A stretch of DNA of 20,802 nt from a virus, in the IMG/VR virus record IMGVR_UViG_3300009008_000297, positions 1 to 20,802 of that record, one strand, 5' to 3'. The position numbers and the translations under genes were made by a program. Under the pieces are notes generated by a model, which searched no databases, had not been told where the DNA came from, and saw only the letters and a list, made by a program, of their open reading frames with translations. Below, in pieces: positions 1 through 20,729 of this stretch (the stretch's first letter is position 1; each line of letters opens with the position of its first letter).

Positions 1-1074
1 GAATTTTTTATTCCAGGTGGTCAAATAAGCAAACTGAAGAAAGGAGCTGGGTTATTAAAGAGAGGTGCAATAGAAGGTGCGGCATTTGCTGGCCAATCAG
101 CTTTACAAGAAGGTGAAATTAATGAAACAGTAAAAAATGCTGGTATTATTGGTTTGGCATCTCCGTTAGTAGGAAAAGTATTTGGTGCCATAAAAGAACA
201 AATAAAATTTTTACCGGATAGATTTATAAGAAGTGCTTTAGGTAGAAGTAAGAAAGAAATATTAAAAGATTTAACTAAGAATCCTAAAAAAACATTATCT
301 CAATTTGTCCTTAAGACTAAAAAACCAAAAACTGCAAACTCTTTAATACTTGAATCTAAAAACACCATTAATAAATTAAATTCTCAAATTGAAAGTAATC
401 TAAAAAAAGTTAATATTACACAAAATAAAGTAAGTACAAAAAAAATATTAGATAAAGTTACTCAAGATATTAATAAAGCTGGTGGATCAATTAACTTAAA
501 TGAAGCGCGTGATATTATAAATAAATTAGCTCCACAGGCCAAGGGATTATTTAATAAGCCTACTATGTCTTTAAGTAATGCCAATAATCTTAGAAAATCA
601 ATAGACAAAACACTTGGTGATAGAGGATTTTTAACATCACAAGTACCATTTAATAAAGATGTGTTAAGAAGATTTACTAATATTTTAAGAGAAGACTTAA
701 AACAAAAAGTTCCTAAAAATAGAAAACTATTTGAGGAATTTGCTAATGAGATTCAATTTAGAGATGCCCTACTTGATAAAGTTTCAAAAAAGTTAGGCAA
801 TCAGGTTTTATCTTTTGGTGATTTTATAGGTGGTGGACTTGGTGGAATTTTTGGAGGTGGGCTTCCAGGCGCTGTTGCCGGAGTTACTGCAAGAAGAGTT
901 ATAGAGTCAGTTCCATTTAAAATTGGAAGTGCTAAAATGATTTCACAATTTAATGAGATATTAAATATATTAAGTAAAGTGCCAGAAGCACAAAGAGGTT
1001 CGATTGTTCAAATTTTACGTCAGAGATCATCTTCTACTGAACCAACCGATACACAAGAAGAGACTTTGCAATAA
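1..1074 (+). CDS. Putative virion/DNA-ejection protein, C-terminal part (5' partial)
   Basis: The frame is open from base 1 of the window, so the gene starts upstream; about 357 residues are visible and the stop is TAA. An ATG or TTG inside it (for example TTG at 154) would be an artificial start. The visible protein is rich in Lys, Asn and Ile. It begins with an Ala/Gly-rich stretch, continues with long charged helical segments (visible residues about 95-250), and contains a Gly-rich hydrophobic patch around residues 275-297 (motif GGGLGGIFGGG) that resembles a membrane-active segment. Such a pattern is common in podovirus internal or ejection proteins and in large virion-associated proteins. 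No enzymatic motif is visible. It is followed by a strong hairpin at 1139-1169, consistent with the end of a late operon. The role is inferred from composition and position only. Confidence 0.55.
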   Translation, partial: EFFIPGGQISKLKKGAGLLKRGAIEGAAFAGQSALQEGEINETVKNAGIIGLASPLVGKVFGAIKEQIKFLPDRFIRSALGRSKKEILKDLTKNPKKTLSQFVLKTKKPKTANSLILESKNTINKLNSQIESNLKKVNITQNKVSTKKILDKVTQDINKAGGSINLNEARDIINKLAPQAKGLFNKPTMSLSNANNLRKSIDKTLGDRGFLTSQVPFNKDVLRRFTNILREDLKQKVPKNRKLFEEFANEIQFRDALLDKVSKKLGNQVLSFGDFIGGGLGGIFGGGLPGAVAGVTARRVIESVPFKIGSAKMISQFNEILNILSKVPEAQRGSIVQILRQRSSSTEPTDTQEETLQ

Positions 1075-1138
1075 AACTATTAATAAAATAATAATCCAAA
1101 ACATATTTGTTCATTTAATTTATAAAAAGCTGATTCAT

Positions 1139-5684: not shown

Positions 5685-5981
5685 ATGAAACAACACATAA
5701 CAAAAAAACAATGGGAAGAGTTACCAACAATAAATGAGATAGGAGATTGGATGGTTAAAAGTGGTTACTGGCTACAATATGGAAAAGGTATTGATATGGA
5801 AACAGGTGGACCATCCATCGGCCAAATGATTGAGTTTTTAGGGGATGATTTAATTAAAATCAGCATTGAAAAAGATGAGATTGTAATAAAAGATGATAAA
5901 AAACCAAACGGAGTATGGGTTTTAAGAGGTGGCGGAGTTTGTAATAATTTATGGGAAGCAGTTAAATATAAATTGAAATGA
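5685..5981 (+). CDS. Conserved phage protein of unknown function
   Basis: The 98-residue protein reads TKKQWEELPTINEIGDWM at the N-terminus, PSIGQMIEFLGDDLIKI in the middle and ends in CNNLWEAVKYKLK. From memory, the PSIGQMIEFLG motif and final DALWEAVKxKL pattern occur in many small phage and prophage proteins without assigned function. Its stop overlaps the start of the HNH gene (ATGA), which looks like insertion of the endonuclease gene into an operon junction. Confidence 0.7.
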   Translation: MKQHITKKQWEELPTINEIGDWMVKSGYWLQYGKGIDMETGGPSIGQMIEFLGDDLIKISIEKDEIVIKDDKKPNGVWVLRGGGVCNNLWEAVKYKLK

Positions 5982-6613
5982 AAACATCACAAAAAAAAGA
6001 GTTGGACAAATTATGTAAAAAGTGTAAAGAAAAAGTTTATAAAAGAAGTTATTGTTTTAATCATTTTAAAGAATATAAAAGTGAAATTGATAAAAAATAT
6101 AGAGAAAAAAATATAGACAGAATTAACAAACAAATGTCAGAAAAATATTATAATGGTGGTAAAAAATTTGTTTGTAAACAATGTAAAAAAGTATTTAAAA
6201 GATATAGAACAACAGCACCTAAATATTGTTCTAGAAAATGCTTTGAAATAGAATCAAAAACGAGTAGAAAAGGTAAAAAAAATCCAGCATATAGAAATGG
6301 ATTAAGGGTAAATGGTAAAAGAGGAGAGAGAACAGTTAAACACTCAAATGCTTGTAAAGAATATAAAATAAAGTTCTTAGAAAAAAATGATTATATATTC
6401 TGTGAATTTTGTAAGATAAATCAATCATTAAGATTTGAAACCCACCATATAGTATTTGCTTCTGAAGCTCCTTCTCATAAAAATTTACATAATGAAAGAA
6501 ACTTAATATTAGTATGTATTCAATGTCATAATAATTTCCATAAAGACAAATCAATAAGAAAAGAACTTGTAAAACAACGAAAACTAAAAGAGTTATTTAA
6601 TCATCTAAAATAA
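5978..6613 (+). CDS. Free-standing HNH homing endonuclease
   Basis: The 211-residue protein has two small zinc-binding N-terminal modules (CKKC at 13-16, CKQCKKVF at 66-73 with YCSRKC at 83-88). A KKNPAYRNG segment (100-108) resembles the DNA-binding NPxxxxG motif of homing enzymes. The HNH domain has CEFC (142-145), HH (156-157), N174/N175, and CIQCHNNFH (180-188). The catalytic His-Asn-His set looks intact. HNH enzymes nick or cut DNA using a metal-bound His. The gene is even richer in A and T than its neighbours and overlaps the previous stop by ATGA, as expected for a mobile, recently acquired gene. No intron core is visible around it. Confidence 0.85.
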   Translation: MKTSQKKELDKLCKKCKEKVYKRSYCFNHFKEYKSEIDKKYREKNIDRINKQMSEKYYNGGKKFVCKQCKKVFKRYRTTAPKYCSRKCFEIESKTSRKGKKNPAYRNGLRVNGKRGERTVKHSNACKEYKIKFLEKNDYIFCEFCKINQSLRFETHHIVFASEAPSHKNLHNERNLILVCIQCHNNFHKDKSIRKELVKQRKLKELFNHLK

Positions 6614-9605: not shown

Positions 9606-10343
9606 ATGAGAGAAATAAAATTTAGAGAAGATATAGAATATACGATTACTCATTCTCCTAGCAATGGTAAAATGATTGATGGTTATGTTTATTGTATTAA
9701 AACTAAAAAACCAAAACATAAGGATGCAAAAGGTTGGTATAAAAGACAAGGTTATATTATGAGATTAGTTGAGGGACATCCTAATGCTGATAAAAGAGGA
9801 TATGTTCCAGAACATAGACTTATAATGGAAAAACATCTTGGTAGATTTCTAAAATCAGAAGAAAAAATACATCATAGAAATCAAAATAGAGAAGACAATA
9901 GCTTTGACAATTTAGAATTATTTGGTAATCAAGCTAAACACGCTGAAAGTCATTTAGTTGGGAAAAGAAATCCTCACGGACAATTTATAGCAGATGAACC
10001 AATTTTTAGTGAATTAAAGTTTAGATTATATAACAAAAACACTAAAACAACTTATATTTATACTTTAGCTACTTTAATCGGCACTACTTTTAGAAGAGGA
10101 CAATTTGAATTTAGGGGAAGATGGACAGGCTTAAAAGATAAAAACGGAAAAGAGATTTACGAGGGGGATATTTTAAAACAACATAAAAATAAAGGCAGGA
10201 TGTTTAAGGTATTTTGGAATAAAGATGGTTCTTGGTTAGTTGAAGAAATAAACGAACCATCAATTTGGAATAGAGTATGGGCTTGGGCTAAAGTTACTGA
10301 AATCATCGGCAACATCTACGAAAACCCAGAATTATTAAAATAA
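9606..10343 (+). CDS. HNH endonuclease domain fused into a YopX protein
   Basis: The 245-residue protein combines two families. Residues 1-7 (MREIKFR) are the standard YopX start. Residues about 40-118 are an HNH_3-type domain: GYVPEHRLIMEKHLGR with H70, IHHRNQNREDNSFDNLEL with H89/H90 and N102. From about 135 the protein returns to YopX sequence: ELKFRLYNKNTKTT, GRWTGLKDKNGKEIYEGDIL, and EIIGNIYENPELL. The YopX start is thus present twice (REIKFR and SELKFR), as if the endonuclease entered in frame near the N-terminus and the edge was duplicated. YopX function is unknown. Both domains appear complete, so the fusion may be an active nuclease. Confidence 0.8.
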   Translation: MREIKFREDIEYTITHSPSNGKMIDGYVYCIKTKKPKHKDAKGWYKRQGYIMRLVEGHPNADKRGYVPEHRLIMEKHLGRFLKSEEKIHHRNQNREDNSFDNLELFGNQAKHAESHLVGKRNPHGQFIADEPIFSELKFRLYNKNTKTTYIYTLATLIGTTFRRGQFEFRGRWTGLKDKNGKEIYEGDILKQHKNKGRMFKVFWNKDGSWLVEEINEPSIWNRVWAWAKVTEIIGNIYENPELLK

Positions 10344-11013: not shown

Positions 11014-11666
11014 AAAAGTATGTTAGTTTTAGTGAGCTTTATCTTTGGTACCGGGATAAAGAAGAATATATTGATCGATATATAAAGGGTATTGAGTATA
11101 AAGCCACTCCCGAACAATTTTTAGGCAAAACAGTTCATCAAGTAATTGAAGATCCTCGTTATGATTGGTTAAAAATTTTGAAGCAGGAAGGTTATGGCCA
11201 TAAAGAAATAATGCCAATTAGGAAAGCCATAAGCAAACTTCACGCCAAAACAAAGTATGTTCCTGAAAGAGAAAGGGCTTATATCGCAGAAACGCCCTCT
11301 GGGATTAAACTTTTTTGTTTTTGGGATGGATGGGATGGCTTAAAAAAAGAACTTTACGAATACAAAACATCAAAATATCCAGAACGCTGGAATCAAAAAA
11401 TAGTGGATTATCATAAGCAATTATCATTTTATGCCTATGCTTATTGGCTAAATACCCATGGTTTTTTTAGAAATATCCATCTTTATTTTGCTGATTTGGC
11501 CAAGGGGAATGTTAAACATTATCAAACTGCTAGAGGGCGCCGGGATATTGAATGGATAGCAAATTGGATAGAAGAAGGTGTGGTGGAGATTAAAAAATCT
11601 GGTTTGTGGGAAAAGCGATTGGCCAGGAATGAGCAATATAAAAGATTTACTGAAAAATTAGTATGA
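11010..11666 (+). CDS. Second PD-(D/E)XK (RecB/Cas4-like) nuclease
   Basis: The 218-residue protein starts SFSELYLWYRDKEEYIDRYIKG, the typical first helix of RecB/Cas4-type domains. It then has GKTVHQVIED with H43, FWDGWDG with D106/D109, the core ELYEYKTSK with E117 and K119, and QLSFYAYAYW with Q137 and Y141. The set matches a PD-(D/E)XK active site. It lacks the Cys cluster of Cas4. It differs from the nuclease at 3285 in length and motif spacing. The stop overlaps the methyltransferase start (ATGA). A link with DNA modification or host DNA degradation is possible; the substrate is unknown. Confidence 0.72.
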   Translation: MKKYVSFSELYLWYRDKEEYIDRYIKGIEYKATPEQFLGKTVHQVIEDPRYDWLKILKQEGYGHKEIMPIRKAISKLHAKTKYVPERERAYIAETPSGIKLFCFWDGWDGLKKELYEYKTSKYPERWNQKIVDYHKQLSFYAYAYWLNTHGFFRNIHLYFADLAKGNVKHYQTARGRRDIEWIANWIEEGVVEIKKSGLWEKRLARNEQYKRFTEKLV

Positions 11667-12367
11667 AATATAAAAACAAAATAATCTGCGGTGATGCTTT
11701 AATAGAACTTAAAAAAATGAGGGATGAGTTTGTTGATATGTCTATAACTTCACCGCCTTATTGGGCTTTAAGAGATTATGGTGTTAAAGGACAGTTAGGT
11801 CTTGAGTCAACTTTTCAGGAATTTATAACAAAGCTCTGCGATATTTATGATGAAGTCAAAAGAGTTTTAAAACCAGAGGGGACTTGCTGGGTTAATTTGG
11901 GGGATACTTATGCTAGTAGTCCAGATGGTAGAAAAGATAAATCAGTTGGTTGGGATGGAAAACCTAGAAATAATTTAAAAGAAAGCCATAAGGCAATGTC
12001 AGTGGTAAGACGCGATAAAATAAAAGGAATACCGCAAAAATGTCTCTGTCAAATCCCCCAACGCTTTTCAATAGAAATGTGTAATAGAGGTTGGATTTTA
12101 AGAAATGTGATTATCTGGCATAGTGTATGGTCAATTAGTCCAAAACCTTATCCCGAAGCTCATTTTGCTGTTTATCCAACTGAATTACTTTACACCCCAA
12201 TAAAAGCCGGTTGTCCTAAAGGAGGATTGGTTTTAGATCCTTTTATGGGTTCAGGAACAACAGCTTGGGTGGCCCGGAAATTTGGTAGAGATTATTTAGG
12301 TATTGAATTAAGTCCGGAATATATAAAGTTAGCTGAAAAGAGGTTGGCTCAACAAATATTATTATAA
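11663..12367 (+). CDS. DNA methyltransferase (N4/N6, SPPY type), target-recognition region missing
   Basis: The 234-residue protein has the class-beta amino-methyltransferase order: motif IV TSPPYW (29-34), then GQLGLE and LKPEGTCWVNLGDTY. Motif I, LDPFMGSGTT (191-200), is near the C-terminus and binds S-adenosylmethionine. Related enzymes have roughly 100 residues between RNVIIWHKPN and xVWSIxPKPYPEAHF, holding target-recognition elements. Here IIWH (150-153) runs directly into SVWSISPKPYPEAHF, an in-frame loss. Catalytic and cofactor motifs remain, but base or site specificity may be gone. The SPPY form suggests N4-cytosine methylation, though N6-adenine cannot be excluded. Phages use such enzymes against restriction. 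Confidence 0.78.
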   Translation: MKYKNKIICGDALIELKKMRDEFVDMSITSPPYWALRDYGVKGQLGLESTFQEFITKLCDIYDEVKRVLKPEGTCWVNLGDTYASSPDGRKDKSVGWDGKPRNNLKESHKAMSVVRRDKIKGIPQKCLCQIPQRFSIEMCNRGWILRNVIIWHSVWSISPKPYPEAHFAVYPTELLYTPIKAGCPKGGLVLDPFMGSGTTAWVARKFGRDYLGIELSPEYIKLAEKRLAQQILL

Positions 12368-12400
12368 ATTAACTTTACCACGAGGCTAAGTGTTAACTAT

Positions 12401-13018
12401 ATGAAAAATTGGAAAAACTTAATAAACAAAGTAAATTGCATGGACGCCATGGAATTATTGAAGCAAATACCTGATAATTCAGTGGATTTGGTTTTGACTG
12501 ACCCACCTTACGGAATAAATGCTGATAAAATGCAAATGGGTTCTGGTATTCATCATTGGGAAAAAGATACTAAAGATTGGGACGAATATATACCTGATAA
12601 AACATTATTTAATGAAATATTTAGAATTAGTAAAAATCAAATAATTTGGGGCGGTAATTATTTTACTAAATATTTACCACCGACTAAAAACTGGTTGATA
12701 TGGGATAAATTAAATCCTAATATGTCTTTTTCAGAAGCAGAATTAGCATGGGTTGGAAATGGAAAAAGAATAAGAATATTTAAAAATTATTCTGCAAATA
12801 AACTAAAATTACATCCAACAGAAAAACCGTTAGCATTAATGGATTGGTGTTTAGTTAATTATTCCAAAGAAAATGATATAATTTGCGATCCATTTATGGG
12901 TAGTTGGACGACAGCCGTTGCCTGCCAAAAATTACATAGGCAATTTATTGGTTGCGATTTAGAACAAAAATATTGTAAAATCGGGGAAGAAAGATTAAGA
13001 CAAGAAGTTTTATTATGA
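12401..13018 (+). CDS. DNA adenine-type methyltransferase (DPPY), altered motif I
   Basis: The 205-residue protein has motif IV TDPPYGI (33-39) near the N-terminus. After a short central part with IIWGGNYFTKYLPPTKNWLIWDK come HPTEKPLALMDW and motif I CDPFMGSWTTAVAC. The order is class beta, usually N6-adenine or N4-cytosine methylation. Motif I normally reads DPFxGSGTT; here the third Gly is Trp (W169, TGG at 12905-12907). That change sits in the cofactor-binding loop and may weaken or abolish activity. The rest looks intact. It follows another methyltransferase by 33 nt and closes the early block before the switch region. Confidence 0.8.
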   Translation: MKNWKNLINKVNCMDAMELLKQIPDNSVDLVLTDPPYGINADKMQMGSGIHHWEKDTKDWDEYIPDKTLFNEIFRISKNQIIWGGNYFTKYLPPTKNWLIWDKLNPNMSFSEAELAWVGNGKRIRIFKNYSANKLKLHPTEKPLALMDWCLVNYSKENDIICDPFMGSWTTAVACQKLHRQFIGCDLEQKYCKIGEERLRQEVLL

Positions 13019-19200: not shown

Positions 19201-19238
19201 TCTCTTGGAGAAGATGCACTATCGCTACTGATAATATT

Positions 19239-19655
19239 TTGAGAAGTTATGGCGATGTATCGATTAAAGAAGATGTAGTCTTGAATGCTGTTGAAATTTT
19301 AACAGCCAGAGAAACTAGAATCTTCAATATGATTGGTGTTAGCAAAGCTATTGCTACTGTTCATTCATATTTAACCGATACGTTAAAAACCGCCGCTTCC
19401 AACGCCCAGACTGAGGCTGGTGATTACACCAACTTAGCCAGGACCACTCCTTCTAGGTTAACCAACCTTATCCAAAATATTGCTATTCCTTTTAGAGTGT
19501 CTAGGACACAGCAAAAGGTACAGCATTATCACGGTGAGGATGAGTTAAATAGACAAACCCGAAAGGCTTTGATGGAATGGGCCAACGATGCTGAGTTCGT
19601 TCTCGTAAGAGAAACCCTTACATCTGGCGTATCCGGTACCGCTCCTAAGATGAGT
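19239..19655 (+). CDS. Major capsid protein, exon 1
   Basis: Exon 1 encodes RSYGDVSIKEDVVLNAVEILTARETRIFN, then SYLTDTLKTAA, AIPFRVSRTQQKV and ALMEWANDAEFVLVRETLTSG to GTAPKMS. This is the SU10-like (DUF5309-type) capsid pattern. The frame continues upstream as TIATDNIL, the expected N-terminus, but with no start codon. ATG 19214, with ribosome site TTGGAG just before it, is out of frame by one base; removing C19217 would give MTIATDNILRSYGD. TTG 19239 is thus only the first in-frame start codon. Splicing is predicted after the T at 19655 (GTAPKM-S). The frame runs on into the intron to 19778, which would give a truncated, altered end if unspliced. Confidence 0.8.
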
Positions 19656-20237
19656 AAACTTGTGGTGATGTTCCGCTTGGTATATAATTGGATATATGCC
19701 AAAAAAACATCAATGTGTAGATTGCAAAAAGATTATTTTAAAATACAATGCTGTCCGATGCCGACAGTGTTATATTAAGCACATTAAAAGTAATCTACCA
19801 AAAACTGCTTTTAAAAAAGGCCAAAGATGTGATGAAAAACATCCTAATTGGAAAGGTGGCAAATGGATATGGGCTAGAAGAAAAGCTATTAAGAGAGATA
19901 AAGGAATTTGCCAAAATTGTAAATTGAATGAATCTGACATTATGGATGTAGCACATATTATTCCAGTAAAGGGGAATTATAAAAGACGATATACACCGCA
20001 AGATATAAAAAATTTAATCACTCTTTGCCCGAATTGTCATAGACGATATGATAAAGGCAAGATAAAACTTCGATAAAATACTGCTCATCTAAAACTCCGC
20101 TAAAACGGCGAAAGCACCCAAGCCAACGCCGTGCTAGCAATAGCAATGACCTACGGGAAACTATGGTCGCTATGGGCAAGTGTAGAGACTTTACACGGAG
20201 CTTTCCGAAAGGAAATGAAGACAAAGTCCACTAAATG
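19656..20237 (+). mobile_element. Group I intron in the capsid gene (582 nt)
   Basis: The catalytic core is visible in order. P3 is CTCCG (20095-20099) with CGGAG (20196-20200). P4 is ACGGC (20105) with GCCGT (20128). P6-like TGCTA-GCAA-TAGCA is at 20132-20145. P7 is GACTTT (20187-20192) with AAAGTC (20223-20228), within the conserved GTAGAGACT and AAGACAAAGTCC. P8 is TTTCC-GAAA-GGAAA (20202-20215). P2 is GGTATAT (19679) with ATATGCC (19694). The 5' exon ends ...GATGAGT and its TGAGT can pair with GCTTG (19675-19679) with a terminal T-G pair. The intron ends in G (20237). Exon 2 begins GG, able to pair with CC (19673-19674). The length is 194 x 3, so both exons stay in frame. Confidence 0.88.
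19696..20076 (+). CDS. Intron-encoded HNH homing endonuclease
   Basis: The 126-residue protein has two CxxC pairs at the N-terminus (C7/C10, C22/C25), then HPNWKGG (49-55), a motif common in phage HNH homing enzymes. The HNH domain has CQNC (72-75), AHIIP with H87, N106 and CPNCHRRY (111-118). The His-Asn-His set looks intact. It lies between P2 and P3 of the group I intron and is read in a different frame from the capsid exon. Its ATG (19696-19698) lies within the 3' arm of P2 and has no ribosome site, so folding of the intron would limit its translation. It would cut intron-less capsid genes and drive intron spread. Confidence 0.88.
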   Translation: MPKKHQCVDCKKIILKYNAVRCRQCYIKHIKSNLPKTAFKKGQRCDEKHPNWKGGKWIWARRKAIKRDKGICQNCKLNESDIMDVAHIIPVKGNYKRRYTPQDIKNLITLCPNCHRRYDKGKIKLR

Positions 20238-20729
20238 GGTATTATCGAAGCAACTTCTAAGTCAACCAACCATACCTCGCATAATTCCGGTACCGTTTGG
20301 TCCGCAACTATCTTGGATGGTTTGATGATGGATAACTGGGACAATAGCAACGGCGACGTTTCTACTGATCTGTTCATGGGTTCATTCTTGAAGAAAACCA
20401 CGGACACCTTTACCCAGAAAAATAACATCGTAGTCAATAACCCAGGTGGCCAGACCACCATTGTCAGGACTGTTACTACTTATGAATCATCCTTTGGTAC
20501 CCTCAGGATTCATAAGCACAGATATGTCCAGCAATCCGGTGATGCTACCGGTAGGGTGCTAGCTATCAATCCTATGAAGCTGGCTAAGGCTTTCCTTGAT
20601 AAGCCTTATATCGACACTGGTTTGGCTAGAAGTGGCCCTTATACTCCTAGGGCTGTGGCTGGTTCTTGGACCCTTGAGGTTCATAACCAAGACTCAAACT
20701 TCTATGCTGATGGTTTTGACATAGACTAG
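20238..20729 (+). CDS. Major capsid protein, exon 2
   Basis: Exon 2 starts GIIEATSKSTNHTSHNSGTV (163 residues), followed by ILDGLMMDNWDNSNGDVSTDLFMG, FGTLRIHKHRY, VLAINPMKLAKAFLDKPYIDTGLARSG and a C-terminal GSWTLEVHNQDSNFYADGFDID. The family junction is typically GT.xRxMxGII.., so GTAPKMS joined to GIIEA restores the expected order. The joined protein is about 302 residues from TTG 19239, or about 310 with the upstream TIATDNIL, normal for SU10-like shells. An apparent ATG at 20235 belongs to the intron end and is not a real start. The exon is richer in G and C than the intron, as expected for a highly expressed gene next to a mobile insert. Confidence 0.85.
   Translation, partial: GIIEATSKSTNHTSHNSGTVWSATILDGLMMDNWDNSNGDVSTDLFMGSFLKKTTDTFTQKNNIVVNNPGGQTTIVRTVTTYESSFGTLRIHKHRYVQQSGDATGRVLAINPMKLAKAFLDKPYIDTGLARSGPYTPRAVAGSWTLEVHNQDSNFYADGFDID

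Follow-up and report, generated by a model that had tools for sequence, protein, structure and literature searches.

The window, by which we mean the whole analysed sequence, is a virus record of 20,802 bases from an uncultured phage, and the capsid region is its last gene region. The SU10-type major capsid gene lies there in two pieces on the plus strand. Exon 1 (19239–19655) encodes the N-terminal half of the major capsid protein and aligns with positions 16–140 of the Pfam SU10_MCP profile (PF17236; 2e-21), and exon 2 (20238–20729) aligns with positions 142–285 out of 292 (2e-19). Between them is a 582-nt insert (19656–20237, plus strand) that carries, also on the plus strand, a gene for a 126-amino-acid HNH endonuclease (19696–20076). 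The endonuclease matches PF01844 (HNH; 36.1 bits, 7e-9) and PF13391 (HNH_2; 37.7 bits, 2e-9) above the cut-offs, as well as HNH families of PHROG, and has homologues in sister introns. Its ORF is intact and its HNH residues align with those of the relatives; a C-terminal extension present in five relatives is absent from the window protein. A preliminary description of this DNA had read the arrangement as a group I intron with an HNH gene in an SU10-like major capsid gene, a reading that is upheld by occupied and empty homologues and by covariation. Two more HNH proteins, apparently free-standing, are encoded at 5978–6613 and 9606–10343, the second also matching the YopX domain, and two adjacent DNA-methylase-like ORFs (11663–13018) were recognised by eye from motifs such as DPPYG and DPFMGSG.

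The proposed join, 19655/20238, is the right one because uninterrupted homologues cross it residue by residue. In L003, whose uninterrupted capsid protein is 70% identical to the joined protein over 305 residues, the sequence runs through the junction as ...SGTAPQMSGLIQATSK..., with GTAPQMSGLIQ opposite GTAPKMS/GIIEA of the window. The joined protein, for which an alignment to SU10-like capsids had been suggested, is spanned across both exons by the SU10_MCP profile and shares 56–78% identity with its nearer relatives; among annotated phages it matches only distant relatives at 24–27% identity, and exon 2 alone has no match there. Splicing would yield a continuous major capsid protein, roughly 300–310 residues long. 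Homology of exon 1 begins at about 19215, yet there is no in-frame ATG in the region of 19205–19241, and an ATG at 19214 sits behind a ribosome-site-like GGAG but is out of frame. A sequencing error, an unusual start, or use of TTG 19239 as the start would each be an explanation.

Intron anatomy and fold

The window intron has the group I core P3–P4–P6–P7–P8 with the P3/P7 pseudoknot. Of the helices read in the preliminary description (P2, P3, P4, P6, P7 and P8), all but P2 are paired and compensated in relatives; P2 is unsupported, and neither P2 nor P9 was seen in the window intron. The final eight exon 1 bases (AGAUGAGU, 19648–19655, plus strand), whose final U marks the 5′ splice site, pair with the internal guide sequence GCUCAUCU (20083–20090, plus strand) to form P1, which is composed of a U·G pair between U19655 and G20083 at the splice site and seven further pairs. 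Across seven introns 96.4% of P1 cells are paired and three positions are compensated in relatives; these changes include exon C with guide G in L006, exon A with guide U in L242, and, at another position, a change from G-C to A-U in L018. Directly before the guide, AAUACU (20077–20082) pairs with GGUAUU of exon 2 (20238–20243) as P10, which has two compensated positions and is broken in L006 alone, at three positions. The T before the insert and the G at its end, both pointed out at the outset, correspond to the U of the U·G pair and to the terminal (omega) G20237, which is a G in every same-site intron.

Because the guide that pairs with exon 1 comes after the ORF, the HNH gene is placed in the P1 loop. 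In L006, L012, L017, L018 and L120 the guide doubles as coding sequence for T-A-H-L-K at the end of the HNH gene. A guide ahead of the ORF was considered and rejected: by eye, exon 1 and the bases just inside the intron form short, unconserved helices, whereas the guide behind the ORF fits fully.

The helices of the core, all on the plus strand, follow in order. P3 joins CUCCG (20095–20099) to CGGAG (20196–20200), and each of its five pairs is compensated somewhere among seven introns; P4 (20105–20132, with 20105–20110 opposite 20127–20132), which encloses P5, is 100% paired with a compensated A-U/U-A; P6 (20133–20177) consists of 20133–20135/20175–20177 and the extensions 20140–20144/20169–20173 and 20148–20151/20165–20168, the first extension being compensated at 5 of 5 pairs in six introns; P7, GACUUU (20187–20192) with AAAGUC (20223–20228), is 100% paired, has one compensated pair, in L242, and would by homology be the guanosine-binding helix; and P8 is the hairpin UUUCC-GAAA-GGAAA (20202–20215), with 4 of 5 pairs compensated. 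The letters of P4 and P7 presumably resemble those of the Azoarcus tRNA intron, and group IC3 would be a candidate subgroup.

When nine helices are scored in six introns, 97.5% of cells are paired and 14 pairs show two-sided compensation, against 0–2 in slid controls. With a seventh, divergent intron included and the P6 helices left out, 98.0% of cells are paired and 16 pairs are compensated (0–1 in slid controls), a count reached by 0 of 500 shuffles. In 14 cores, including non-capsid ones, P3, P4, P6 and P7 are 100% paired; P8 is off register in this 14-row alignment and was excluded from that count. The window core also folds better than its shuffles (z −2.8). The 23-base pattern that gathered several relatives comes from the window and includes the 5′ strand of P7 and part of P3, so the letters of these stretches are conserved by choice of sample; L242 and L243 entered through their HNH protein instead, and the other helices likewise lie outside the pattern. 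A broad 3′-junction pattern applied to genome contigs gave apparent chance matches, with none of the tested loci matching capsid by tblastn, and was not used.

The covariance model search that had been proposed as a check gave a divided result. Rfam reported no Intron_gpI match, and chance matches only, in the window and in 19500–20400. Model R1, built from eight non-capsid introns that also came from the 23-base pattern and including no capsid intron, found 20093–20230 at 92.6 bits (E 1.5e-18) together with eight other capsid loci, same-site introns among them. Like Rfam RF00028 (Intron_gpI), the window intron has P3–P4–P6–P7–P8; unlike it, the intron goes unreported by that model, has an ORF in the P1 loop and shows no P2 or P9. 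Two relatives that share the window's core do exceed the cut-off of 50 (L019, 63.0 bits; L015, 52.3 bits), and L009 and L010, with the same core, fall just under it. Since relatives with this core are recognised, the miss, which agrees in form only with a refuting outcome named at the outset, is read as a blind spot of the model; a standard Rfam scan can miss the ORF-in-P1 layout, and phage intron counts may therefore be too low. The intron core searched as DNA against annotated phages had no match.

Occupied and empty capsid sites

An insert at the identical codon boundary is present in L006, L011, L012, L017, L018, L040, L120, L242 and L243 (L006 is the same contig as L020, and L012 the same as L122), which with the window makes ten contigs with an intron at this capsid site. 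The junction is uninterrupted in 80 capsid loci, or 76 when repeats of one contig and L121, whose intron lies elsewhere, are left out; ten occupied against eighty empty loci is no frequency, because intron letters served to find several of the occupied loci. Mapped on a quick tree built from 87 capsid proteins, the presence of an intron at the site requires eight changes, at least seven of them by well supported branches, and the window's nearest capsid relative, L044 (77%), is without the intron. Such patchy presence is what a homing element would leave behind, although the tree does not separate gain from loss, and the occupation of one capsid site in ten contigs suggests a repeated homing target. 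L123 breaks off precisely at the final exon 1 base, as could happen when mixed alleles are assembled.

Introns were also seen in other settings. Those of L009, L010, L013, L014, L019 and L021 share the window's core and appear by eye to sit in the anticodon region of tRNA genes; the six interrupted tRNAs are absent from the ARAGORN output. These small group I introns (L010, L013, L021 and others) share core letters and helices with the window intron and differ from it in host gene and guide, and most have no ORF within the portion read. L040 has a second group I intron (919–1104, minus strand; RF00028, 88.6 bits) directly behind its capsid stop, with an HNH-like ORF downstream.

Explanations for the split gene

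The site comparison, the fold and the compensating changes together make it very probable that a mobile group I intron with an HNH gene splits the capsid gene at 19655/20238; splicing and cleavage are here predicted from the sequence features. In the capsid transcript, the guide at 20083–20090 would loop back past the endonuclease gene and pair with the eight bases that end exon 1. As the anatomy suggests, free guanosine would attack after U19655, and the freed U would attack after G20237, with P10 aligning exon 2. During mixed infection, the intron-encoded HNH protein would presumably cleave intron-free capsid genes at this position, and repair after the cut would copy the intron into them.

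That the intron still splices while its endonuclease has degenerated, so that this copy is inherited passively, seems rather unlikely: the window HNH protein, without the C-terminal extension of five relatives, would fit such decay, but its intact ORF and aligned HNH residues argue against it, as does the patchy presence with its minimum of seven changes, which speaks for the family and not for the window copy. We consider it highly improbable that the locus is a broken capsid pseudogene into which a free-standing HNH gene was inserted, with splicing absent. Phages commonly have free-standing HNH genes, the window has two more HNH proteins, and the start of exon 1 lacks an in-frame ATG; against this stand the full homology in both exons, the exact junction, and compensating changes that keep P1, P10, P3, P7 and P8.

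The length of 582 is a multiple of three, which had been offered as an argument for the intron and would also suit an in-frame protein insert, namely an intein or a hidden insertion domain excised post-translationally. The frame-keeping length is a coincidence: same-site relatives measure 528, 568, 601, 626, 636, 665 and 737 bases, and five of the seven (568, 601, 626, 665 and 737) break the frame, which is thus not under selection. Read onward, the frame of exon 1 hits a stop at 19776, and the HNH gene lies in another frame. Because of this stop and the off-frame relatives, removal would have to be at the RNA level, and with no splicing-domain match in the window, a protein insert has virtually no plausibility next to the preferred reading of a mobile group I intron.

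A major capsid gene had been called a rarer site for an intron; this is fair, but the site is not new (PMC3706429, PMC7886860). In mycobacteriophage LittleE, splicing of a major capsid gene intron, most likely group I, was demonstrated by RT-PCR and N-terminal sequencing, and the authors also cite lactococcal Tuc2009 (PMC3706429). Set beside the window by description, the LittleE intron likewise splits the major capsid gene, with U before and G at the end, an endonuclease gene and intronless relatives, but it is 819 bp long, its LAGLIDADG-related gene is on the opposite strand, the capsid is related to HK97 gp5, and the host is Mycobacterium (PMC3706429). Delta and Zeta crAss-like phages, also compared by description, are likewise uncultured and have group I introns with endonucleases in their MCP genes, but they form another phage group, with up to several introns per gene (PMC7886860). 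Since capsid introns have already been published in LittleE and crAss-like phages, the window intron is of an established kind, and what is new is its family. Among the open-access papers searched, group I introns and SU10 were named together in just two passing mentions, and a Bastillevirinae survey leaves capsid genes unmentioned. Phages make few proteins in larger amounts than capsid protein, and an intron in its gene must therefore splice very efficiently.

Possible exchange of core and endonuclease

L120 (about 1884–2500) has an intron at the same site with the same guide, and its HNH protein branches within the window-type HNH proteins (99/93 support), but the core after the guide is unrelated to that of the window. 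This core is not recognised by Rfam and resembles most closely, among the relatives found, that of the L121 intron (77% mean column identity in a two-row alignment). The L121 intron (about 1718–2503) occupies another capsid site, about 13 residues upstream, where it joins ...LV/RSTLTSG, and has a different ORF from that of the window, near its 3′ end. In our reading the L120 core is a putative group I core, based on P3, P7, P8 and P9 read in the two sequences and a weak model match (24 bits). L011 presents the reverse combination: its core is that of the window intron, but its HNH protein clusters with free-standing HNH proteins.

Endonuclease-plus-guide and ribozyme thus appear to have been exchanged, with one contig for each case, and this intron family and its swapped parts look new. 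The homing unit could be a cassette of endonuclease gene and guide that moves separately from the ribozyme, with a single stretch carrying the DNA target together with the RNA splice target, a proposal that we regard as tentative and somewhat short of an even chance. Whether endonuclease-plus-guide and ribozyme are mobile as separate modules is a question for which the swapped cores provide a natural test.
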